This document shows positions 30,212 to 48,602 of a stretch of DNA of 64,000 bases, piece by piece. Under the pieces are notes generated by a model. The model did no database searches, was not told the DNA's origin, and saw only the letters and a list, made by a program, of their open reading frames with translations. Where the stretch lies: NCBI RefSeq assembly GCF_016767715.1, contig NZ_CP050145.1, forward strand, positions 3,844,001-3,908,000. The letters are read 5' to 3'. The translations under genes and the position numbers were made by a program. Numbering within the stretch: position 1 is the first letter of the stretch; each line of letters begins with the position of its first letter. The stretch is from Mycobacteroides chelonae. GTDB lineage: Bacteria > Actinomycetota > Actinomycetes > Mycobacteriales > Mycobacteriaceae.

Positions 30212-30424
30212 TCAGCGCCGCCATCGCTGCCAGCGGTAGATGTCGTCCTCGTCGAAGTCGGACTCGGTCATATGGATCTGCATGGGCATCTGAAGTTCCG
30301 TGACCTCGGCGGACTCATCGAGCATCATGTCGCCGCGTGCTGCGTCGGCGTCATCCCGCAGCTGATCCAGGGTGCTCTCGAAATCCGAGACGATGCCTGC
30401 GAGGGCGTCGGTGATGTCGATCAT
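30212..30424 (-). CDS. Small acidic protein of the EspC-like cluster
   Basis: This 70-residue protein is strongly acidic in its middle (LRDDADAAR, DESAEV, TESDFDEDD) with a basic, Trp-containing end (YRWQRWRR). It overlaps the large upstream gene by 4 bases, so they are coupled. I recognise no family; a chaperone or regulator role for the two upstream candidate secretion substrates is only a guess from context. Confidence 0.65.
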   Translation of the reverse strand: MIDITDALAGIVSDFESTLDQLRDDADAARGDMMLDESAEVTELQMPMQIHMTESDFDEDDIYRWQRWRR

Positions 30425-32049
30425 CGCCCAGCCTTAGGCAGTTCATCGGCGGCGATTTCACACGGCGTCTCCCCGGCATCCGTCCCCGCGGCCTGAGGCT
30501 GAGCCTGCCGGCCGCTGGGCCCCACCGAGGGCACGGGTGAGGGCTGCTGCGCAGGCTCGGGATGCTGGGCCGCGTTCGGCTGCTGTGTGTGGACCGGCGG
30601 TGGGTTTACCGGCGACATCGATCCGGCGGGCTGTGCGGCAGACAGGCCACCGGTAGACGGCGGAACCGCACCCCCCGGCGGCGTCGTGGTCCCGAGCGGC
30701 GCACCCGGGGTGGTCTGACCCGCAGGGGCCGGAGTGGCTTCCACGCCACCTGCTCCTGCCAGCTGAACGCCCGGGCCCTGCATCGGCTTGCCATCTGTGG
30801 CGAACGTCGCGCCCGCATCCGAGCGGGCCTCCTGGATCGCCGCATCCTTGGCCGCCGCCATCTTGGTGTCCGGGTCCTTCTTGTCGGCAGCCTCGTCGGC
30901 CTTCCCCTCGATCTTGTCCTCGGGCTTCTCGTCGCCGGCATCGCCGCCCTGTCCCAACTGGTCGAACGGGATGCTGGAGAGGCCCTCCGTGATGGCGCTG
31001 ACAATGCCACTGGCCGCCTGGCCGATGGATCCGAGCGCACCCGTCATGGCCCCGGTCAACCCGCTGACAATCTGGCTCGGGTCCATCCCCTGCTGCCCTT
31101 GCCCCTGGCCGGCACCCTGCTGCCCACCGCCAGCCATCTGCCCGCCCTGATTACCCATCGCGGAGGCCGGGGTCGCCGTGCCCTGCATCCCGCCGCCCGC
31201 GCCGCCGCCGGCGGACCCGTTGGCGGCGCTGCTCTGGCCACCCCCGGCAGCATCTGACTCCTGCTTGCCGCCCTTGTTTTTGTCCCTGTCCCTGTCCGTG
31301 GAGTTCTGCGGGGACTCGGTGTCCGAGTCGTACTCCGGTCCGAGCTGGCCGGGCGGGTTCTTGAACTCCGCGGGCAGCTCCTGCTTCAGCGCACTGGTGA
31401 ACGTGTCGTACGCCTCGCCACCCTTGCCCCATGCCGCCTTCATGGCGGGAAGCCATTTGCCCTCGATGTTCTGCTGGACGTGCGGACCGATCTTCGTGGC
31501 GTTGGTCTCGTCGGCCACCGACCTGTCGCCGGTACCGGTCTTGTAGGTGGCGACGGCACTGTCAAAGGACGCACGATCGGTCACCAACCCATCGACCATG
31601 GTCGATGCCTGCTTCTTGAGATCGACGATGGTCCAGAGCGTTTCGCGTAACCCGTCCAGACCGGTGGATACCTGCCCGAATTCCTTGGTCACCGCATCGG
31701 CGGTGGAGTTGTGCGTTCGCAGGAACTGATTCGCAGCCTCCGAGCCTTTGCCTTCCCACATGCCCATGAGCTGCTGCAGCTGTCCGTGCTGACGTTCGGC
31801 GGCGGACTTCATGGTGGTCACCGCGCTCTTGAACAGCTCAAGATCCGCACCGAGCTTGTTCAGGTCCATGCCGGCGTCCATGTCGTACCAATCGAACAGC
31901 TGGCGCTCGTTGGCGGTGAGATCCGGGTTGGTGATCGTGACCGGCGACTTACCGTTTCCCCGGATCGCGGTGGTCGTGTAGTTCTGCGAGTTCGCGATCG
32001 CCTGGATGCCCTCGCTGCGCAGCGACTCGATGTCGTACTTACCGGCCAT
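30421..32049 (-). CDS. Large WXG-like, Gly/Pro-rich candidate type VII substrate
   Basis: ATG 32049 is used because the frame upstream belongs to the EspC-like gene. The 542-residue product has an N-terminal helical half (about 55-235) with two WXG-like turns, MWEGKGSEAANQFL (Trp98-Glu-Gly) and AWGKGGEAYDTF (Trp207). From about 240 it turns into low-complexity Ser/Gln/Gly sequence, has a moderately hydrophobic Gly/Ala segment (about 345-385), and ends Pro/Thr-rich. This resembles the layout of secreted ESX-associated proteins such as EspB, though I see no close relative. Coupled to the EspC-like gene before it (11-base overlap). Confidence 0.7.
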   Translation of the reverse strand: MAGKYDIESLRSEGIQAIANSQNYTTTAIRGNGKSPVTITNPDLTANERQLFDWYDMDAGMDLNKLGADLELFKSAVTTMKSAAERQHGQLQQLMGMWEGKGSEAANQFLRTHNSTADAVTKEFGQVSTGLDGLRETLWTIVDLKKQASTMVDGLVTDRASFDSAVATYKTGTGDRSVADETNATKIGPHVQQNIEGKWLPAMKAAWGKGGEAYDTFTSALKQELPAEFKNPPGQLGPEYDSDTESPQNSTDRDRDKNKGGKQESDAAGGGQSSAANGSAGGGAGGGMQGTATPASAMGNQGGQMAGGGQQGAGQGQGQQGMDPSQIVSGLTGAMTGALGSIGQAASGIVSAITEGLSSIPFDQLGQGGDAGDEKPEDKIEGKADEAADKKDPDTKMAAAKDAAIQEARSDAGATFATDGKPMQGPGVQLAGAGGVEATPAPAGQTTPGAPLGTTTPPGGAVPPSTGGLSAAQPAGSMSPVNPPPVHTQQPNAAQHPEPAQQPSPVPSVGPSGRQAQPQAAGTDAGETPCEIAADELPKAGR

Positions 32050-32347
32050 TGGCTGCAGCCACCCTTGCCTTGTTCTTGGCATCCCGATCCGCATAACGCT
32101 GCGCGGTCGCACGGAGTTGTTCGGCGATCGCGGTGTTGGTGCGCTGCCAGTCCTCGAGGTGAGTGACCACCTCGCGCAGCCCATCCCTGACCGCGTCGCC
32201 CTTGGCCGTGTGCCACCGTCCGGCCGATGCCCCACCGAAAGACAACCCACGCAGCTGCTGAATGGCTTTTTGCAGCTCTTCTGCCACGCTGTCGAACTCC
32301 CCAGCGACCCCCCGGACACCAGCGACGTTGATCGAGGTTTCTCCCAT
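32039..32347 (-). CDS. EspC-like small helical protein
   Basis: ATG 32347 gives 102 residues with two long amphipathic helices joined near GRWHTAKGDAVRDGL (Trp45). The second ends with TAQRYADRDAK, which contains YxxxD at 85-89, the general type VII export signal. Length and form match the EspC/DUF2580 family of ESX-secreted proteins. It is the first gene of a three-gene overlapped cluster 5-16 kb from ESX-4. Confidence 0.75.
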   Translation of the reverse strand: MGETSINVAGVRGVAGEFDSVAEELQKAIQQLRGLSFGGASAGRWHTAKGDAVRDGLREVVTHLEDWQRTNTAIAEQLRATAQRYADRDAKNKARVAAANGR

Positions 32348-33548: not shown

Positions 33549-35063
33549 ATGACAGCCATTCCGCGCCGCACGGTCCTGCGTGCCGCCCTGCTTGGGCTCG
33601 CTGTTGCTCCGGCCGCGGCATGCGGGCCGGCGTTGGTGACTACTCGTCCGAGACTGACGCATGGAGTCGCAAGCGGATTCCCCCGCTCCGACGGGGCGTT
33701 GGTCTGGGCCCGCTCGGATCGCCCGGCCACCATGCTCGTCGAAACAGCTGCCACCGAAAGCTTCTCGGACGTGCGACGTTTCACCGGGCCGATCCTCACA
33801 CCCGAGACCGACGGGACGGGCCGACTGCGTCTCACCGGCCTGCCCGCGGACTCCGAGGTGCACTACCGGGTCACACTGGACTCCGATGGAGCCCTGAGTG
33901 AGCCTGTTACCGGCGTCTTCCGGACAGCACCGACCGACGCACGAAACGTGCGACTGATCTGGTCCGGCGATGTGGCGGGACAAGGATTCGGCATCAATCC
34001 AGACGTCGGTGGGATGAGGATCTTCCGCACCATGGCGGACCGGAATCCGCAGTTCTTCCTGCACAGCGGGGACACGGTGTACGCGGATGTTCCGATCCAG
34101 GAAACATTGACCCTGTCCGATGGACGGATATGGCGCAACGAGGTATCCGAGGCGAAAAGCGATGTGGCACAGACACTCGACCAGTATCGCGGCCAACACG
34201 CGTACAACCTCACCGATGCAAACTACCGCTACTTCAACGCGCACGTTCCGCAACTAGTGCAGTGGGATGACCACGAAGTGCTCAACAACTGGTATCCGGG
34301 CGAGATTCTGGAGAACGACAAGTACACCGAAAAGCGAGTCGATGTGCTCGCACAACGCGGGCACCGGGCATTCCATGAATGGCAACCAACCGAACGCCGC
34401 GAAGCCGTTGACGGCCTTGTTTACCAACGAGTCTCATACGGTCCGCTATTGGACGTGTTCATCCTCGACATGCGCAGCTACAAGGATCCCAACTCCACCA
34501 ACCGGCAGCAGCATGGCGCCATCTTCGGCGCCCGCCAAACCGAATGGCTGATCAACGCCATGGCCTCATCCAAGGCAGTATGGAAAATCGTCGCCAATGA
34601 CCTGCCGCTGGCGCTGGTGGTACCCGACGGCAAGACGAACTTCGAGGCCGTCGCCAATGGCGATAACGGCCCCCCTCTGGGGCGAGAAACCGAACTGGCA
34701 CACATCCTCTCGCAACTGAAAGCGCGACAGGTCCGCAATGTGGTGTGGCTGACCGCCGATGTGCACTACACCGCGGCGCATGAATACTCGCCTGCGCGTG
34801 CCGCCTTCACAGACTTCGACCCGTTCTGGGAGTTTGTGTCGGGTCCACTGCATGCCGGCGCCGGCCAGGAGAAGCCACTCGACGGAACCTTCGGGCCGCG
34901 AGCGGATTACGTCCACGCGGCACCGCCGGATCAGCAGTCACCGCTGGACGGTTACCAGCATTTTGGGCAGGTCGATATCGACGGCACAAGCGGCGATCTC
35001 ACCGTCACCCTGTGCGACGCCGCGGGTTCCGCGCTGTACACCCGCAGCCTGGCGCGTGCCTAG
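33549..35063 (+). CDS. PhoD-family phosphodiesterase/alkaline phosphatase, Tat lipoprotein
   Basis: The 504-residue protein starts with a Tat signal (RR at 6-7 in [13 protein letters not shown]) and a lipobox AAAC with Cys25, so it is exported folded and lipid-anchored. Metal ligands lie in [27 protein letters not shown] and [13 protein letters not shown]. PhoD enzymes take phosphate from phosphodiesters with iron and calcium. ATG 33549 has GGTGG upstream. The stop overlaps the end of glmM by 4 bases (convergent). Confidence 0.92.
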
Positions 35064-36379
35064 ACCGCGCCGACCACCTCGGCCACCCGCTCGGCGAGGC
35101 GCTGTGCGGTCGACTGCTCGCCGGCCTCCACCATGACACGAACGAGTTGCTCGGTTCCGGAAGGACGCAACAGGATTCGGCCATTGCCCGCAAGCTCAGA
35201 CTCCACAGCGGCGACGGCCGCAAGCACCTCGGGTGCCTTCGCCACCGTGTGCTTATCCGAGACCGGCACGTTGATCAGCGTCTGCGGCAGGCTACGCATC
35301 GCGGACGCAAGATCAGCCAATGACTTACCTGTTTGAGCCATCCGGGACATGAGACGCAGGCCGGTGACGATCCCGTCTCCGGTAGTGGCCAGCGAGGGCA
35401 ACACGATATGACCGGATTGCTCGCCCCCCAAGGCGAATTGGCCCGCGCGTAACTCCTCCAGCACATAGCGGTCACCGACACCGGTCACCTTGACGTCGAT
35501 GCCCGCCGAACGCATGGCGATATGCAATCCCTGATTGCTCATCACCGTGGTGACCAGCGTGTTATCGGTGAGCTCACCGGCTTCCGCCATCGCTGCGGCG
35601 AGCACGACCATGATGGCGTCGCCATCGATGACGTTCCCATCCGCGTCTACCGCAAGACATCTGTCAGCGTCGCCGTCATGCGCAAGCCCGAGGTGAGCAT
35701 CGTGGGCCTTCACGGCCGCCTGCAGTGGACCGAGATGCGTTGACCCACAACCGTCGTTGATATTGAGCCCGTCGGGGTCGGCATTGATGTCTATCACGTG
35801 AGCACCCGCGGCGCGGTAGGCCAAGGGCGCCGCGTCGGAGGCCGCGCCGTGCGCACAATCGACCACCACGGTGACTCCGCTCAGCGGATGGGTGGCGGCA
35901 TTGTGAACATGATGCAGATACCGGTCGAGGGCGTCGACGGCGTCGCGCACACGCCCGATGCCCGCCCCGGTCGGACGTGCCGCAGGAGTGTCCAGCTGCG
36001 CCTCGATGGCATCCTCGGCGGAGTCATCAAGCTTGTGACCGCCGGCGCCGAAGATCTTGATGCCGTTGTCCGGCATGGGGTTATGCGAGGCCGAGATCAT
36101 GACGCCGAAGGCCGCTCCGTAGGCACCCGTCAGGTATGCCACCGCCGGGGTGGGCAGCACACCGACTCGCAGCACGTCGACGCCTTCTGCCGCGATACCC
36201 GCGACAACCGCGGCCTCCAACATCTCACCACTGGCGCGCGGATCTCGACCCACGACCGCGATGGCGCGACCACTGGCCAACGACCGCGCAGCGGCCGAGC
36301 CCAGCGCGACCGCGAGCTCGGCTGTCAGCTCGGCATTCGCGACACCACGCACACCGTCAGTGCCGAATAGTGAGCCCAT
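35060..36379 (-). CDS. glmM: Phosphoglucosamine mutase
   Basis: The 439-residue enzyme ([19 protein letters not shown] start, phosphoserine loop [13 protein letters not shown], metal loop [11 protein letters not shown], and the C-terminal [14 protein letters not shown]) converts glucosamine-6-phosphate to glucosamine-1-phosphate on the way to UDP-GlcNAc. It follows rpsI with a hairpin between them, as in Rv3441c. Note that glmS lies about 6 kb away in the same region. Confidence 0.97.
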
Positions 36380-37744: not shown

Positions 37745-38032
37745 TTAGCCGTGCCAGGCGCCCGCAGCGCTCTGGTCGGTGTGCTGCGCATCCTGGTTAC
37801 CCTGGTCAACCTTGGAGTTGAGCTGGGTCAGGATCTGGTTGAGGTCCTCAGCGGACTGGTGCCAAGCCTTCTGGTACTCCTGGTACGCGGTCGCTTCCTG
37901 ACCCTCAGCTTGCTGGATCAAGGGATTGACGTCGTGCTGCAGTTCCTCGAGGCCGGCCTGAATCTTGCCGATAATGCCCTTGACATCTGCAACCAATGCG
38001 TCGATCTCGCCGTGATTATAGGTAATCTGCAT
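37745..38032 (-). CDS. esxT: EsxT-like ESX-4 substrate without WXG motif
   Basis: The 95-residue helical protein matches the position of Rv3444c and its C-terminal half (YQEYQKAWHQSAEDLNQIL, GAWHG end). The Trp-x-Gly turn is not present: where the turn is expected it reads QQAEGQEATAY. It should form the heterodimer with EsxU, which does carry the motif. The gene lies 47 bases below esxU in one operon and ends in a strong terminator. Confidence 0.92.
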   Translation of the reverse strand: MQITYNHGEIDALVADVKGIIGKIQAGLEELQHDVNPLIQQAEGQEATAYQEYQKAWHQSAEDLNQILTQLNSKVDQGNQDAQHTDQSAAGAWHG

Positions 38033-38079
38033 GTTCGTTCCCCTTTGCTATGTGATGTCTCTGATGACTATTGCTAGAC

Positions 38080-38358
38080 CTAGAAGGTCTGACCCTCATC
38101 CATCTCCTGGATGCGACGCTTGTTCGACTCCATGGTGTCGGAGATCTGCAGGAGCACCTTCTGGATGTCGCCCATCTCCTGGTCGAAGCGAGCCATCGCC
38201 TCGTCGAAGGCATGCCGCGCCTGACCCTGCCACGTGCTGGTGCCCACCGCTACGCGGTCCCGCAGCTGGTTCTGGATCGCGGTGAACTCCTGGTGCTTGC
38301 CTTCGATCTTCTTCGACGTAGCGTCGAGCAACGCCAGGTCATTCTGAAAAACAGCCAC
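38080..38358 (-). CDS. esxU: EsxU-like WXG100 ESX-4 substrate
   Basis: At 92 residues it is a classic WXG100 protein: helix, turn at TSTWQGQARHAF (Trp43-Gln-Gly45), helix. It corresponds to Rv3445c. It should be exported with EsxT through the ESX-4 channel. Transcription probably begins in the AT-rich region just upstream. Confidence 0.94.
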   Translation of the reverse strand: MAVFQNDLALLDATSKKIEGKHQEFTAIQNQLRDRVAVGTSTWQGQARHAFDEAMARFDQEMGDIQKVLLQISDTMESNKRRIQEMDEGQTF

Positions 38359-38439: not shown

Positions 38440-38600
38440 ATACGATGGCCTGACCGTCAGATCGGTTCCATCTTTTTCAAAATTTTTTTCAGCAATCTTT
38501 CTAGTTACCCGATTTTACCGCATGCGCAGTTCTGATTGCCAGATCACAAGCCTGTTCGACATCATTATAGCTATCTTTCTTGGACTGGCAGCCAACTCCT
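38440..38600. other. AT-rich island at the head of the esxU-esxT operon
   Basis: This stretch has long A/T runs (TTTTTCAAAATTTTTTTCAG at 38472-38491) in an otherwise GC-rich sequence and covers the esxU upstream region and the 3' end of the next gene. It could bind Lsr2 or EspR; no single clear promoter is readable. Confidence 0.6.
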
Positions 38601-39880
38601 ATTCTCAGGTCATCATCCAGAAGCACCGTCCATGCGATGTCATGGCCCTCGCGCACCTCGGTGTAGGTAACAGCTGGCCGGTCCGCCTTGTGGTCGTCGG
38701 CCTTGAAATCGGTGAATACCCCCGGCGGCTCCTTCGTCATGGCAGCTCGCAGCGTCTCGGCTGTTGAGGCCAAGGTTTCTGTCGACTTCACCCGCACCTG
38801 GGTCACATGCACGACCGTCTCGGGGTCCGCGGGTGAGATCACCTCGACCCTCGCTGAGCCGGCACCGCCCGCAGGGATACGCCGTACCGCCCACTCGGCG
38901 GGCACCATGAACTGCACATGCCCCTCTACCAGCAGCGATGTCGCCACCACGGGAGCCGTCGGCGACGCTCGCCGCTCCCGCGCGGAGGCCACGGTCACGA
39001 CAACACCGGTGACGACCACTGCGGCGGCCAGACCAATCGCGGCAAGCGGCCACCACGCGGGAAGCCGCGGCGCGGATCTCGCGGGCGATGCGGGTGTCCA
39101 TTCGGGCCTTCTGGCCACAACGGGCTCTTCGGCCGGCTCATCGACGAACGCCGGCCCCCGCGGAGCTTGACCGACATCGCGAAATACCGAATCCTCGGCG
39201 ACCTGCGATACCCCAGGAGTCAAGCCGATCCGATCGACCGCGTCGACGATCGCCTCACCCATCTCACTATCGGCCGAGTCGACGAGGATCGCGGCGACTC
39301 CCGTCGGCTCGCTGCGGACCACATCCTCGACGGCACGTGCCACGGCGCGCGCAACGTCTGCGGCGTTCTTGGCCTCCCAGGACCGTTCTTCGAGATGACG
39401 AACCGTCGCCTCCGGCTCACCGGCGGAGCCGTGCGCCACAACGATGACGGCGACCTCACCAGGCGACACCTCGACCACCACCAGGGAGCGCCCCGACAAA
39501 TCGGTGCGCACACCGCGCTCGGCCAGTGCGATGGCGCGCGAACGCACGGTCAGTCTCGCGGCCATCATCCGCGCGGCATTCGACAGCGTGGTGCGTCGTC
39601 CAGGACTCCACGCCGTGGGATGGATCAGCTGCATGGAATCGAGGCGGACCGGGGCATTCTGGTCAGTGAGCAACGACTCGAACAGGGCTGCCCAGAGCGC
39701 GCGGGACGGAACCACGCGCCCCGGTAACAGGGCCATCTCGTCATCGAGTGCGGCGACCGCCGACCGAACATCGGAATGTCCGGCCTCACGGATGCCGGCG
39801 TCGGTTCGCGCTCGGACTGCGGTCTCGGTCACTTCGATCGCCACCCGCGTCCCTATCTGCGGGTCGCGATCCAGAATCAC
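38501..39880 (-). CDS. ESX-4 secretion-associated membrane protein (Rv3446c type)
   Basis: The GTG at 39880 overlaps the eccC4 stop and gives 459 residues. The N-terminal half looks cytosolic (ASKHA-like strands such as SLVVVEVSPGEVAVIVVAHGS), one membrane span lies at about 280-302 (WWPLAAIGLAAAVVVTGVVVTV), and the exported C-terminal domain is that of the type VII secretion-associated family (two Cys near the end: GVGCQSKK and EQACDLA). It is part of the ESX-4 operon with eccC4, and its 3' end is AT-rich. Confidence 0.85.
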   Translation of the reverse strand: MILDRDPQIGTRVAIEVTETAVRARTDAGIREAGHSDVRSAVAALDDEMALLPGRVVPSRALWAALFESLLTDQNAPVRLDSMQLIHPTAWSPGRRTTLSNAARMMAARLTVRSRAIALAERGVRTDLSGRSLVVVEVSPGEVAVIVVAHGSAGEPEATVRHLEERSWEAKNAADVARAVARAVEDVVRSEPTGVAAILVDSADSEMGEAIVDAVDRIGLTPGVSQVAEDSVFRDVGQAPRGPAFVDEPAEEPVVARRPEWTPASPARSAPRLPAWWPLAAIGLAAAVVVTGVVVTVASARERRASPTAPVVATSLLVEGHVQFMVPAEWAVRRIPAGGAGSARVEVISPADPETVVHVTQVRVKSTETLASTAETLRAAMTKEPPGVFTDFKADDHKADRPAVTYTEVREGHDIAWTVLLDDDLRIGVGCQSKKDSYNDVEQACDLAIRTAHAVKSGN

Positions 39881-42800
39881 TGCGGATCGCTCCAGGCGAC
39901 TTGGATCAGTTGTTGACCGCCCGAGCGCATGACCAGGGTGCCGCGCCCCGCAGGCTGCTCACTCGGTCTGACCGTCCCCAGCAGCACACCCTCATCTTTG
40001 TTGCCACTCATCTGTAAACCGATGCAGGACAAGTCCTTCATGCGGGCCATCATCGGCTCGAACATCGCCCGCGAGGCACCGCTGGTGCGGCGCGCGATCA
40101 CAACATGCAGGCCGATGTCCTTCGAGTGCGGTAGGTACTCCGCCAGTGGCAGCAGCGGGTTTCCACTTGCCAGCGCCACCAGGTCGTAGTCGTCGACCAG
40201 GATGTAGATCTCCGGGCCGGACCACCAGGACCTGTCCCGCAATTCCTGTTGAGTCACATCGGGTCCCGGCATGCGCGACTTGAGGAGCTCGATCAACGCA
40301 GGCACCTCATCGACCAGGGTATTGCTCGACATCGCGTACTTGGCCAGATGCCCGGTCTCGACGACACCGAGCAAGGTGCGCCGATAGTCCACGATGAACA
40401 GCTGCACCTGTTCCGGGGTGGTGGTGCGGACGATCTCGCGGCACATGGTGCGCAACAAGCCGGTCTTGCCGCACTCGCTGTCGCCGAAGATCATCATGTG
40501 CGGCTGCTCGCCGAACTCCAGGAACGTCGGGGCCAGCTCGGTTTCATTGATACCGACGAGGATGCGCAGGTTCGGCTGATCGTTTTGGGGTGCCTGCGGA
40601 ACCAGTGCGGCGTAATCGATCTTGTGCGGCAGCATGCGAACCTTCGGCGCTTCCGCCGTACTGCGCTGGCGCATGCTCGCCGCGGCCGCACTGATCGCCT
40701 CACCAAGGTCCTGATTCGACGAGACACTGTCGACGCGTGGCAATCCGATGAGCATGTGCCGACGGTCGCGGGTGATACCCCGGCCCGGCCTGCCATCGGG
40801 CACGAGCTGTGCCAGCTTGCGATCGAAGTCCGAGTCCAGTGGATCACCGAGACGAAGCTCGACGCGCGTGCCGATCTGGTCCTTCAGGGCCGGACGGATC
40901 TCGGCCCAGCGCGACGCCGTGACCACGGTGTGCACACCGAAACCAAGCCCCTGCGCCGCAAGCGCGGTTACCTGTGGCTCGAGAGCCTCGAACTCCTGCC
41001 GTACGGTGGACCAGCCATCGATGATGAAGAACACGTCACCGAATGGATCATTCGCAAGCTGTGGGTCACCTGCACCCTTGCGCCGCCGGTACTCGGCCAT
41101 CGAGTCAATTCCATAGGCGCGGAAGGCATTCTCACGCGATCTGACGATCGTCAGCATTTCGGCGAAAGTCCGCCGGATCAGATCTGATTCCAGGCGGCTG
41201 GCCACCGAACCGACATGCGGTAGCTGCGCCAACGACGTGAGCGTGCCACCACCGAAGTCCAGGCAGTAGAACTGCACCTGCGCGGGACTGTGTGTCACCG
41301 CGAGCGAGGTCACCAGGGTGCGGACAGCCATCGACTTCCCGGACTGGGGTGCGCCGACAATGGCGACGTTGCCCGCCGCAGCGGAGAGGTCGACGATGTA
41401 CGGGTCGCGCCGCTGCTCGTACGGCCTGTCCACGATTCCGATCGGAACGGTCAGGCTGCCCACCGCGTCGAAACCAGCACGACCGTGACGAGGAATCAGG
41501 TCGCCCAGCGTGGGCGAATCGTCCAATGGCGGAAGCCACACCTCGTGAGCCGGATTGCCATGCCCCTCAACGCGATCGAGGATCGTGTCGATGACCGACC
41601 TTCCTGGTGCCCCTTCGGACGCGGCCGGAGTGTCATCTTCGACCACTTCCACCGGACGCATCTGCAGCGCCACCGGCGCAGCGGTAAAGAGGCGCGGCGC
41701 TGCACCTCCGCCTCCCGAGGAGACGGCCCGACGCGCCGGTCCGTACGGCACATATGGACCTGAGACGTAGGAGGTTTGGAATCGCGTCAGCTCCCCCGAG
41801 TCGTCCTTGAGGTAGCAGGAACCGGGGGTGTTGGGCAGATGATAGGCGTCCGGCACGCCGATCGCGGCACGGGATTCGTTGGCAGAGAACGTCTTCAAGC
41901 ATAGCCGATAAGACAGGTGCGATTCCAGCCCGCGCAGACGACCCTCATCCAGACGTTGCGAAGCGAGCAATAGATGCACATGTAGCGACCGGCCCAGACG
42001 GCCGATAGCGACGAACAACTCCGCAAAATCCGGATGCTGACTCAGCAATTCGGAGAACTCGTCGACGATGATGAACAGTGCCGGCAATGGGGCGAGGGAC
42101 GCACCAGCAGCGCGCGCACGCTCGTACTCAGTGACATTGGCGAAGTTGCCCGCGGCGCGCAATAGCTCCTGGCGCCGGTTCATCTCGCCGGCAAGAGCGT
42201 CCTTCATGCGGGACACCAGGTTCGCCTCTTCGGCGAGGTTGGTGATGATCGCCGCGACGTGCTGTGCCCGATCCAGACCCAGGAACGTCGCTCCACCCTT
42301 GAAGTCGACGAGCACGAGGTTGAGCGCATCCGGCGAATGGGTCGCGATCATGCCGAGTGTCAACGTGCGCAGAAACTCCGACTTACCCGAACCGGTCGCA
42401 CCGATGCAGAGCCCGTGTGGACCCATGCCGTTCTCGGCGGCTTCCTTGATATCCAGCTCCATTGGAGTGCCGTCGACCGCGATACCGATCGGAACCCGAA
42501 GCCTGTCACGGCCAACCCTGTTGCGCCACACTACTTCCGGGTTGAGTAGTCCGGGATCACCGATACCCACGATGTCGGACCAGCGCGTGCTGACCTCGGT
42601 CTGGATCTGAACCTCGTCGCCGCTGCCCGTCAGCACCCGATAGGGCGCCAAGCGGCGCGCACACGCCATCGCCTCGGTGACGGTGAGGTGATCCGGGTGG
42701 GCGAAGACCTCGGACCCGACGTTGCCCTTGGCACCCAGCCCGCGTTCGGTCAGCTCCAGTTGCATACCGCGACGGGCCGCGAGCGGATCCACCCTGGTGC

Positions 42801-43863
42801 CGATCTCCACGAGGGTCACCGAATCGATGCCGTGGTCGACGATGAGGCGTTCGGACCCGATCAGCGTGCCGCTGTCGACGATGATGAGAATCTGCGGCCG
42901 GTCGGGGGACGGCTGCGCGGTCCGCGAGAACCGTTCCCGCTCGGTAATCAGCGACGCCAACGATTCCTCGACCTCACCCAGCGAGTGGTAGACCAGCCGA
43001 GATGAGCCGACGCCGTCGAAGGCGCTCGGATGCTGCGAGTGCGGAAGCCATTTGAGCCAGTCCCAGTGTGGGGCGGCATGCCGATTGACCACCGCCGCCA
43101 CCAAGAACTGGTCGGGCCCGTGGAACATCGCGAGCTGGCAGATCATGGCGCGCAACATGCCTCGCGCCACCTCCGGCGAACCGTCGATGGTGACGGCCGC
43201 AAAACCTCTCAGGTTCAACGCGATAGGCAGCTCGGGCACCAGCGAGTGCGTACGCACGAATCGCCGCAGTGCCACAGACGCGACCGGCTCCAGCTCCTCG
43301 ACCGGGCCGATCTCCGGTGCCACCAACTGGGCCGCCAGACGCTGATCCCCTACTCCGACACGCACATGGCAGTAGTCGCTGTCTCCGGGACGCCGCTCCC
43401 ACATGCGGCGGCCACCGGCCAATGTCCACAGCGCGGCGGGGTCCGGGTTGTTCCAGAGCAGCGCCTTGCGCTGGGCCGCACCGGTATCGGTGACGTTCTT
43501 GCGCACCACTTCGAGGTACCGCAGGTAATCCTTGCGATCCTCGTTGATCTCGCTGGTCTTGGCTCCCTTGCCGCCGCTGTTGGACACCATGCTGACCATC
43601 GAGACCATCATCATGATCGGGAACAGCATGAACATCGGGCTGCGCATCATCCCGCCGCCTGCCCCACCACCGAAGCTTCCCGAGGTGACGAAGAAGGCGA
43701 TCATGCCCACCATTGCCACGACCATGACCAGCGGCATGATCTTCGCAATGATCGGCGACGGGACCGGCCGCGGAATCTCCGGCGGCGGCTGCACATTGAC
43801 CTCGCCGCCCGGGACACGAGGCACCGCAAGCCGAGGCCGACGAATGAATATTGTGGTGTTCAC
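39877..43863 (-). CDS. eccC4: EccC4, three-ATPase motor of ESX-4
   Basis: The start is taken at GTG 43863 (VNTTIFIRRPRLAVPRVPGGE), giving 1328 residues in one chain. Two membrane spans lie near residues 39-60 and 77-94. Three FtsK/SpoIIIE ATPase domains carry Walker A motifs at 488-496 (GATGSGKSE), 837-844 (GAPQSGKS) and 1127-1134 (GDSECGKT), with Walker B segments FIIVDEFSEL, FFIIDGW and YILVDDYDL; only the first has the Glu expected of an active site. It powers export and recognises substrates through the last domain. Divergent from eccD4. Confidence 0.96.
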   Translation of the reverse strand: MNTTIFIRRPRLAVPRVPGGEVNVQPPPEIPRPVPSPIIAKIMPLVMVVAMVGMIAFFVTSGSFGGGAGGGMMRSPMFMLFPIMMMVSMVSMVSNSGGKGAKTSEINEDRKDYLRYLEVVRKNVTDTGAAQRKALLWNNPDPAALWTLAGGRRMWERRPGDSDYCHVRVGVGDQRLAAQLVAPEIGPVEELEPVASVALRRFVRTHSLVPELPIALNLRGFAAVTIDGSPEVARGMLRAMICQLAMFHGPDQFLVAAVVNRHAAPHWDWLKWLPHSQHPSAFDGVGSSRLVYHSLGEVEESLASLITERERFSRTAQPSPDRPQILIIVDSGTLIGSERLIVDHGIDSVTLVEIGTRVDPLAARRGMQLELTERGLGAKGNVGSEVFAHPDHLTVTEAMACARRLAPYRVLTGSGDEVQIQTEVSTRWSDIVGIGDPGLLNPEVVWRNRVGRDRLRVPIGIAVDGTPMELDIKEAAENGMGPHGLCIGATGSGKSEFLRTLTLGMIATHSPDALNLVLVDFKGGATFLGLDRAQHVAAIITNLAEEANLVSRMKDALAGEMNRRQELLRAAGNFANVTEYERARAAGASLAPLPALFIIVDEFSELLSQHPDFAELFVAIGRLGRSLHVHLLLASQRLDEGRLRGLESHLSYRLCLKTFSANESRAAIGVPDAYHLPNTPGSCYLKDDSGELTRFQTSYVSGPYVPYGPARRAVSSGGGGAAPRLFTAAPVALQMRPVEVVEDDTPAASEGAPGRSVIDTILDRVEGHGNPAHEVWLPPLDDSPTLGDLIPRHGRAGFDAVGSLTVPIGIVDRPYEQRRDPYIVDLSAAAGNVAIVGAPQSGKSMAVRTLVTSLAVTHSPAQVQFYCLDFGGGTLTSLAQLPHVGSVASRLESDLIRRTFAEMLTIVRSRENAFRAYGIDSMAEYRRRKGAGDPQLANDPFGDVFFIIDGWSTVRQEFEALEPQVTALAAQGLGFGVHTVVTASRWAEIRPALKDQIGTRVELRLGDPLDSDFDRKLAQLVPDGRPGRGITRDRRHMLIGLPRVDSVSSNQDLGEAISAAAASMRQRSTAEAPKVRMLPHKIDYAALVPQAPQNDQPNLRILVGINETELAPTFLEFGEQPHMMIFGDSECGKTGLLRTMCREIVRTTTPEQVQLFIVDYRRTLLGVVETGHLAKYAMSSNTLVDEVPALIELLKSRMPGPDVTQQELRDRSWWSGPEIYILVDDYDLVALASGNPLLPLAEYLPHSKDIGLHVVIARRTSGASRAMFEPMMARMKDLSCIGLQMSGNKDEGVLLGTVRPSEQPAGRGTLVMRSGGQQLIQVAWSDPQ

Positions 43864-44078
43864 CCCGTGCTCACCCTGGCCCTCCGGTTCCCCCGCGTCA
43901 CATCTCGTGGCAATCTGTGGCACCCACGCTACCGCCCAGCCCACGGCGGGCTACAGGATAGGGCCGTTATATCCGGTGCCGCAACGAATTCGCTCACAAG
44001 ATCGCTGCAGCCGCTGGTCGCGTGGATGGCGTTCGCCCGGATGCATCGAACCGCTGGCGGCGCTCAGCAGCGTTCGGC

Positions 44079-47123: not shown

Positions 47124-48602
47124 TTAAGCAGGCGGTGTGCTCGATGTGGACGGATTGATCGCCAAACCTGTCTTGTCCGGCGGCATTCCGTCGTGCACGA
47201 CGAGTGCGTCTTCCTTGCTCAGTCGAGGCCCCGGCGGCAGCAGCCCGACGACCGGCCACGGGGCCGGAACGGGTTCAACCGTGAGCCCCAAAGACTTGGC
47301 GGCCTCCAGATTCCCGATGCCGAAACGCACGCCGGTATCGAGGATGAGATAGAGCGACTCGGCACGCCCGGTATCGCCACCCAGGCCCGTGGACCGCACG
47401 AATGCGCTACGCGCGGGCGGAATGTAGGCGGTGTCGAGGTTGGGCCCCTCCTTGTCGGCCTGCGCCAGCACCACCGGTACCTGATCGGTCTTCAACGGCA
47501 GCGAGTTACCCATCAAAAGCTTGGTCGAGGCGTGCTCCTGCGTCTTCTCCTGCCCGGGCTTCCAGCTGCTGCACAGCACCGACTTCTCCGGGACGTCCAC
47601 AATCTTCCCGGCACGGTCCGGAAATGTCTGTACGGCAAGCACATTGAGGCTCTGGTGTCCCGAGATCACATCCGGAGCGACGGAGACGATGTCTTGTGCG
47701 CCCTGGGAGTCGGAGAACCGGATCAGATCGGCGGTGACCTCGTTGACGCGTTGCACCCCGCCCGAGAGCACCACGTAGTACTCGGCAGAGTCCGCCCGGC
47801 TCATCTTGATGACCGACCCAACGCGAACACCACCGGTGGTGATGGGCGAAGGCCCTCCGGCGTCGGGGATGGGCGGCGGAGCGATGGCCGGAACCTCGGG
47901 AATGGCGTTGAGCACGTTCATCGATATCGGCCGGGGTGTCACACCTTCGAGACGCAGCGCGCGGGTCACCGCGGGGTTCGTCAGATCCACCGCGGCGCGC
48001 TTGCCGTCGTAGAGCAGATACATCTGGCTGTTCACGGTCACCAGGGCGTACCTGTCCTTCGGCATCTCCTGGTTGCCGTTCTCGAGGGTCACCTTGCCCG
48101 CGATCACCGTGGAGGTGACGGTGGAACTCGGCGGGGGCGTCGCGACATCGCACACCGTCCAGATGGTGTCGTCCCCGGTCAACGGACCCGGAATGGAGGC
48201 CGGCGCACCGGGAATCCCCACCAGCGGGCCGCGACGCGCCTTGGCCAGCTCCGAGTCCTTGACCGGCTTGGGATTCTCGTTGTTCCCGGAGATCAACCGG
48301 GCCGATGCCAAATTGAGCGCGGGGTGAAGCGTGTCCTGGATCCGGACGTAGACGGCACCGGTGTCCTTGGCCATGACGATGGGCTGGTCGCCCAGCGGCA
48401 TGTTGGGCCGAAAGAACGCCAAGATCGCACAACCGGCAACAACAACGGTGGCCAGCACGATGCCGACCATGAGCGAACTGGACTGCGACCGCATCGGGTC
48501 GTGGATCATTCGGACGTCACGGCGAACCAGTGCGTGCTCCATACGTCGCACCAGGAACCGGTACCCGCTGACCTGCAGCCGGGTTGTCGGTTGTCGCGCC
48601 AT
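47124..48602 (-). CDS. eccB4: EccB4, ESX-4 core membrane protein
   Basis: The 492-residue protein has the cytosolic start MARQPTTRLQVSGYRFLVRRMEHALVRRD (family-typical), one membrane span (about 45-64) and a periplasmic domain with the conserved Cys pair (WTVCDV and SVLCSSW). GGAGGGGGG precedes ATG 48602. EccB caps the channel on the outer side. Convergent with mycP4 and divergent from eccE4. Confidence 0.95.
   Translation of the reverse strand: MARQPTTRLQVSGYRFLVRRMEHALVRRDVRMIHDPMRSQSSSLMVGIVLATVVVAGCAILAFFRPNMPLGDQPIVMAKDTGAVYVRIQDTLHPALNLASARLISGNNENPKPVKDSELAKARRGPLVGIPGAPASIPGPLTGDDTIWTVCDVATPPPSSTVTSTVIAGKVTLENGNQEMPKDRYALVTVNSQMYLLYDGKRAAVDLTNPAVTRALRLEGVTPRPISMNVLNAIPEVPAIAPPPIPDAGGPSPITTGGVRVGSVIKMSRADSAEYYVVLSGGVQRVNEVTADLIRFSDSQGAQDIVSVAPDVISGHQSLNVLAVQTFPDRAGKIVDVPEKSVLCSSWKPGQEKTQEHASTKLLMGNSLPLKTDQVPVVLAQADKEGPNLDTAYIPPARSAFVRSTGLGGDTGRAESLYLILDTGVRFGIGNLEAAKSLGLTVEPVPAPWPVVGLLPPGPRLSKEDALVVHDGMPPDKTGLAINPSTSSTPPA

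Follow-up and report, generated by a model that had tools for sequence, protein, structure and literature searches.

A conserved mycobacterial gene pair with type VII substrate-like features, linked to glmM and ending in a near-invariant cysteine peptide

Three overlapping minus-strand genes, for which we use the working names A, B and C, lie in a 64,000-nucleotide stretch of Mycobacteroides chelonae DNA (RefSeq assembly GCF_016767715.1, contig NZ_CP050145.1, positions 3,844,001 to 3,908,000; hereafter the window), part of a single 5.06-Mb contig. A preliminary description made from the sequence had proposed that they form an undescribed set of type VII secretion substrates close to the ESX-4 locus, and the coordinates, strand and overlaps that it gave (11 nucleotides between A and B, 4 between B and C) are all correct. 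We compared these genes across sampled genomes and loci (numbered G and L, with G000 as the source genome). Two results go beyond the earlier account: a near-invariant peptide at the C-terminus of B, and linkage of the pair to glmM in other mycobacteria.

Genes A and B

A is EspC-like with a YxxxD-type ending, as had been claimed. It scores 40.1 bits on the Pfam EspC family (PF10824; cut-off 23.5) and reads YADRD close to its C-terminus; the residue four positions after Y85 is D in 16 and E in 18 rows of alignment A2, giving Yxxx[D/E] in all 34. WxG occurs in none of these rows, and although A scores 29.1 on WXG100, above the cut-off of 27.3, we do not count it as a WXG100 protein. In public sources, proteins related to A carry the label 'type VII secretion target'. 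A single-sequence search of solved structures put RecA and designed coiled coils on top, with EsxB only at E 0.81.

In B, the WxG turn formed by W98 and G100 is present in all 36 aligned rows. A second turn, W207-G-K-G, had also been counted as WXG-like, and we reject it, its W occurring in only 7 of the 36. AlphaFold2 modeled residues 1-260 with a mean predicted local distance difference test (pLDDT) score of 86.1. The long tail described earlier is present: it is variable and Gly/Pro/Gln-rich, with model confidence below 50 from residue 237 onward, and its mean column identity is 0.32 compared to 0.58 for the N-domain. On the WXG100 profile the 542-residue B scores 16.3 bits, below 27.3, and is not assigned to that family. 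At E≤1, Pfam gave neither a PPE (PF00823) nor an EspA/EspE row for B, and EspB did not appear in sequence searches of solved structures; a single-sequence search of such structures with B returned chance-like rows only. When folds were compared, PE/PPE-type structures tied in Z score with BAR domains.

With Yxxx[D/E] in A and WxG in B, the split of motifs fits a type VII heterodimer. Together with the Pfam match, the model folds and the conservation of the gene pair, it supports a type VII substrate-like reading of A and B, and to that extent the proposed substrate set stands.

The C-terminal peptide of B

B ends in a near-invariant peptide, newly described here, with the consensus [ST]PCEIAADELPxxGx. 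This is the best-conserved stretch of the protein: the top 15-residue windows of the B alignment begin at residues 527-528, with a mean identity of 0.86-0.87 over 29 homologs. Exactly 12 residues follow the cysteine in 27 of these homologs (18 and 21 in the other two), and in five Mycobacteroides-type rows it is the sole cysteine of B. The final residues of B are not fixed (R, Q, E, G, S, P and others occur), and in some homologs the chain runs on past the peptide.

A strict DNA pattern for the peptide matched once in 62 of the 98 genomes of the genus and twice in none, compared to 0/98 for a reversed control, and the matching DNA varies at synonymous positions. Occurrence of the peptide in other proteins was considered and set aside, as the strict pattern never gave two matches in one of the 98 genomes. 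A looser pattern, applied to G000 only, gave six matches, one of them reading PCE, against 11 for its reversed control. A text search of the literature for the peptide letters found no match. The unchanging peptide offers a small, concrete handle for finding the partner of B.

Gene C

C is a real gene, small and acidic as described, found in G000 and in six other loci. It is thus present in 7/7 Mycobacteroides-type loci and in none of the 29 others, two of which (L011 and L015) end before the end of B. The ATGA overlap with B recurs in four other loci that we looked at. Pfam gave no match for C at E≤10, and of four relatives two gave a single weak row apiece, neither from a type VII family. 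The known type VII chaperone families, EspG and EspD/EspH, were rejected for lack of a profile match, which leaves the suggested chaperone role a guess.

A similar layout occurs elsewhere in G000, at L043:5219-6745 (G000:C1 about 4748218-4749744), where an EspC-family gene is followed by a 266-amino acid protein and a small acidic, Trp-rich open reading frame (ORF). The 266-residue protein has a weak, sub-threshold PPE match, and by eye the small ORF resembles C in its acidic character and Trp-rich end.

Distribution and genomic linkage

A single B query found the gene in 35 of 61 genomes, all within the genus, and a profile found it in 96 of 98 genus genomes, missing it in G005 and G283. The G005 assembly is 84% complete, lacks B, and has EccC matches limited to a short FtsK-like one. 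By B, the relatives are Mycobacteroides species and Mycobacterium sp. strains; a database profile search, which scored only the 7989 candidates with the most shared words, added nothing to the 17 close proteins of an earlier search. A search of 200 genomes listed 22 of the same genus (the source genome included), all at E≤5.1e-86; beyond the genus, 21 genomes gave weak matches, the best at 4e-12, mostly to the WxG region in frames of 351-1172 amino acids.

A lies directly upstream of B in 36/36 loci. The glmM stop codon lies 36-76 nucleotides from the A start in all 28 loci in which the end of glmM is visible; a 29th, L015, does not show it. In the window, LLM and PhoD genes intervene between A and glmM, and C comes after B. 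The order EccB4-MycP4-EccD4-EccC4-p459-EsxT-L13-S9-GlmM-A-B holds in 8 of the 12 neighborhoods examined, with A of G263 detected by the profile alone, and in G004, G018 and G174 the pair stays beside glmM with the ESX-4 block located elsewhere. The names EsxT, EsxU and glmS, and the number 4 of EccC4 and EccB4, are presumed from position; an EsxT query matches the equivalent place in relatives.

Around A-B-C the window carries glmS, a hydrolase, an LLM oxidoreductase, PhoD, glmM, S9, L13, the EsxT/EsxU-like ORFs and the ESX-4 genes (Table 1). The proposed closeness to ESX-4 holds for distance, with EsxT about 5.4 kb from A-B-C and five genes between them (LLM oxidoreductase, PhoD, GlmM, S9 and L13).

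Table 1. Features of the window, with positions counted from its first nucleotide
Feature	Position	Strand	Properties or basis
Gene A	32347..32039	-	102 aa; EspC/PE-like candidate partner, Y85xxx[D/E], WxG absent
Gene B	32049..30421	-	542 aa; W98xG100 in a helical N-domain, then a low-complexity tail ending in the Cys peptide
B N-terminal helical domain, residues 1-237	31339..32049	-	AlphaFold2 and column identity
B C-terminal peptide TPCEIAADELPKAG, residues 528-541	30427..30468	-	Alignment conservation and strict DNA pattern
Gene C	30424..30212	-	70 aa, small, acidic; 4-nt overlap with B
glmM	35060..36379	-	PGM/PMM domains
EsxT-like and EsxU-like small genes, ESX-4 region	37745..38358	-	ORFs of 95 and 92 aa
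p459	38501-39880		459-aa protein adjoining EccC4; no Pfam match at E<=0.001
EccC4	39877..43944	-	FtsK/SpoIIIE, 3 stretches
EccB4	47124..48602	-	PF05108, 613.9 bits

A further type VII-like locus in G000 is L044:5509-7087 (G000:C1 about 3192508-3194086), where a WXG100 gene precedes one for a 430-amino acid protein that carries an Ntox37 toxin domain at its C-terminus (75 bits); the locus is likely a type VII toxin cassette.

Fate of the pair after loss of ESX-4

Genomes without ESX-4 are natural experiments on which exporter the pair uses. We called EccC4 at ≥48% identity, a threshold chosen in this analysis, and tallied the counts from the rows: among the 98 genus genomes it is present in 88 and absent in 8, with two incomplete assemblies (G005 and G260) left without a call. 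G267, one of the eight, has an EccC at 40% identity at another place. Additional ESX-4-like genes were also seen. L120 (G272:C1:470001-490000) holds a second ESX-4-like cluster (EccB, EccD, EccC, MycP) besides the native one, and 12 further genomes have EccC rows above 1450 bits at 54-56% identity away from the native locus.

In all 88 EccC4-bearing genomes the B match is free of internal stops, although some matches are split across contigs. Export motifs were scored in 85 of these, with G236, G239 and G274 omitted as split. The WxG of B (W98/G100) is present in 85/85, and the Yxxx[D/E] of A in 83, the exceptions being G266 (D for Y) and G155 (V at +4). In the 85 ESX-4-bearing genomes checked for the peptide, six B frames are cut before the end; among the remaining 79 the peptide is in frame in 75, and 12 residues follow the cysteine in 71. 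Variants read PCAIAADEVP in G247 and PCAIAEGEVP in G273. In G252 (L147) and G266 (L143), both with ESX-4, the B frame is broken in the tail and the peptide lies in another frame, either by decay or by sequencing error.

The eight genomes without EccC4 fall into three classes: three have lost or broken A-B, three keep the pair minus one export motif, and two keep everything. In G265 and G276, A and B are reduced to short broken pieces. In G283, glmM, A and B are gone in one gap, with a 17-residue scrap of the B tail remaining, and this loss may be an assembly fault because S9 is also cut there. The gap itself (L092, G283:C7:20001-40000) lies between the LLM gene and the shortened S9, with a truncated EccB4 beside p459, and could be a large deletion or an assembly fault. 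Open A-B frames are kept in the other five genomes (G003, G025, G032, G267 and G268), all with the peptide and with 12 residues after its cysteine. The Yxxx[D/E] of A survives in three of the five, its Tyr being replaced by His in G025 and G032; B of G003 has lost the G of its WxG, and only pieces of its N-domain match the profile. Nothing is missing in G267 and G268, which have the two genes, the two motifs and the peptide. The ESX-4 site of G003, G025 and G032 is on the contig and holds only pieces of p459; such pieces outlive the rest of ESX-4 in G265 and G276 as well.

In a GlmM tree the five genomes fall in three places: G268 with the ESX-4-bearing G251 (support 96/97), G267 with G002, G148 and G011 (100/99), and G003, G025 and G032 grouped (92/91, below the usual mark). 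Both motifs occur in 83/85 genomes with ESX-4 versus 2 of the 5 open pairs without it (Fisher p 0.0008), a value that overstates the case since the motif loss is confined to one clade (G003/G025/G032). Pairwise ratios of nonsynonymous to synonymous substitution rates (dN/dS) over eight pairs were 0.28-0.49 for B and 0.21-0.57 for A, and for the ESX-4-less G025 and G032 they were 0.49 for B and 0.33 for A. These ratios are weak evidence because the synonymous rate of B exceeds 1 in 4 of the 8 pairs and because the pairs include time before the loss of ESX-4.

Export of the pair

ESX-3 may also be involved. G267 and G268 have an ESX-3-type EccC (71-74% identity), and a search for one in G003, G025 and G032 found none. 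This pattern fits a pair that can use either ESX-4 or ESX-3 as its exit and whose motifs degrade once both are gone. It leaves unexplained G265, G276 and G283, which own an ESX-3-type EccC yet have lost or broken A-B. Export through ESX-4 only and export through ESX-3 only were each considered, and neither fits all genomes.

Our tentative preference, held with a confidence just short of even, is that A and B form a helical type VII heterodimer that is exported by ESX-4 with ESX-3 as backup and whose cysteine peptide meets a conserved partner. Here A would be the EspC/PE-like half bearing the C-terminal Yxxx[D/E] signal, and B, which combines a PPE/EspB-like helical domain with a long arm of low complexity, would supply the WxG half, making the pair a split EspB-like or PE/PPE-like cargo. 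Export would run chiefly through ESX-4, with ESX-3 able to replace it, as has been reported for EsxT. Once in the envelope, B would use its arm to show the fixed peptide to a partner that is conserved genus-wide. Since the peptide survives the loss of export motifs in one clade without ESX-4, it may also be read within the cell. The placement of A-B behind glmM suggests housekeeping work connected with building the envelope. C may be an accessory of the Mycobacteroides type that overlaps B and perhaps holds A-B in the cytosol. The gene pair, its motifs, the glmM linkage, the conservation of the peptide and the fate of each after loss of ESX-4 are shown by sequence; the dimer, its export and exporter, the envelope location, the partner and the role of C are inferences.

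A narrower proposal, in which ESX-4 is the sole exporter of A-B and a chaperone C, and these serve its function, seems to us unlikely. It draws on the shared order from EccB4 to A-B, on the intact B of all 88 EccC4-bearing genomes, and on the fact that six of the eight genomes without EccC4 have lost or broken the pair, the Tyr of A or the G of WxG. Dedicated substrates would be kept only where ESX-4 is kept, and 5 of the 8 genomes keep open frames; G267 and G268 retain everything, the pair has not followed the ESX-4 block in G004, G018 and G174, and the G025-G032 dN/dS ratios also speak against it. On the earlier suggestion of a tie to ESX-4 the evidence is divided where an exclusive link is meant: the motif counts (both motifs in 83/85 genomes with ESX-4 versus 2/8 without) speak for it, and the persistence of the pair without the block and its separability from it speak against it.

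Relation to reported proteins

From the M. tuberculosis gene order Rv3438 to Rv3441c, we presume Rv3439c to be B and Rv3440c to be A, between glmS and glmM. The site-2 protease Rip1 has an outward-facing PDZ domain, and PDZ ligands are usually C-terminal, the classic ones ending in a hydrophobic residue. A review reports that a yeast two-hybrid screen against the PDZ domain of Rip1 yielded Rv3439c, named Ppr2, and another paper terms it an alanine- and proline-rich protein, a description that B shares; on this likeness and the gene order, Rv3439c is presumed to be the ortholog of B. B could be a regulator of Rip1 whose peptide binds the PDZ domain and restrains cleavage of anti-sigma factors, and the position of the most conserved part of B at its C-terminus favors this. 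We regard it as improbable, as the orthology comes from gene order and not from sequence comparison, and the variable last residues and the extra residues of some homologs are unlike a classic PDZ ligand.

A cytosolic pair acting, for example, on GlmM or ribosome-linked functions is a similarly poor prospect: the operon-like place behind glmM, separable from ESX-4, and the persistence of peptide and frames in G003, G025 and G032, each minus one export motif, speak for it, and both export-type motifs in 83/85 ESX-4-bearing genomes and a long Pro-rich tail, which we take to be typical of exported Esp proteins, speak against it.

Other reports concern A. The text of PMC11768086 reports that MAB_3747c of M. 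abscessus is up after PQS treatment, at the protein and transcript level; it gives B1MJN1 as MAB_3747c, whereas its Table 2 gives MAB_4316 for B1MJN1. One of the two quantitative PCR primers of that study matches within A with one mismatch, and the second has no good match, its best having five mismatches elsewhere in the window. The A gene of M. abscessus is probably MAB_3747c. Section 7 of PMC11791044 assayed EsxH, PPE4, EsxT, EsxH2, MAB_0664 and MAB_0047, a set that does not include A-B, and the main-text parts of the ESX-4 papers PMC11791044 and PMC9401124 do not name the pair. A literature search for Rv3439c, Rv3440c, Ppr2, MAB_3745c-3748c and B1MJN1 returned nothing on A-B export in the portions of text available. 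'Undescribed' therefore holds only in part, with relatives of A labeled, MAB_3747c reported and Rv3439c known as Ppr2.

A near-universal mycobacterial pair behind a cell-wall precursor gene would be core type VII cargo and not a virulence add-on; the Esp-type pairs known so far are mostly those of ESX-1. Should the link to Ppr2 hold, export would account for how a protein lacking a Sec signal could meet the outward-facing Rip1 PDZ domain. The boldest combination, a housekeeping type VII pair behind glmM whose envelope arm presents the cysteine peptide as the ligand of a dedicated receptor, plausibly the Rip1 PDZ domain, is speculative and has, in our estimate, a slim chance of being right. If true, regulated intramembrane proteolysis would be coupled both to type VII export and to the supply of cell-wall precursors, and the constancy of the peptide despite a decayed export motif would mean that the partner matters independently of export.

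Comparison with known systems

The ESX-1 pairs EspA/EspC, EspE/EspF and EspJ/EspK, like A-B, place a small YxxxD partner beside a larger one, and A exceeds the EspC family cut-off; unlike them, A-B lies beside glmM, outside an esx locus, and B has the C-terminal cysteine peptide. In EspB of ESX-1, as in B, a long tail of low complexity comes after a helical WxG domain, but EspB joins its PE and PPE halves in one chain where A and B are two proteins. PE25-PPE41 and other PE/PPE pairs differ in that B lacks a Pfam PPE row at E≤1 and its Z score is tied with BAR domains. MAB_3747c is likened to A through the published primer that fits with one mismatch; its report concerns protein and transcript level and not export. 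Ppr2 resembles B in being alanine/proline-rich and, we presume, in lying between glmS and glmM. The likeness is by description only, and the passages on Ppr2 present it as a binder of the PDZ domain of Rip1, with no mention of type VII secretion.
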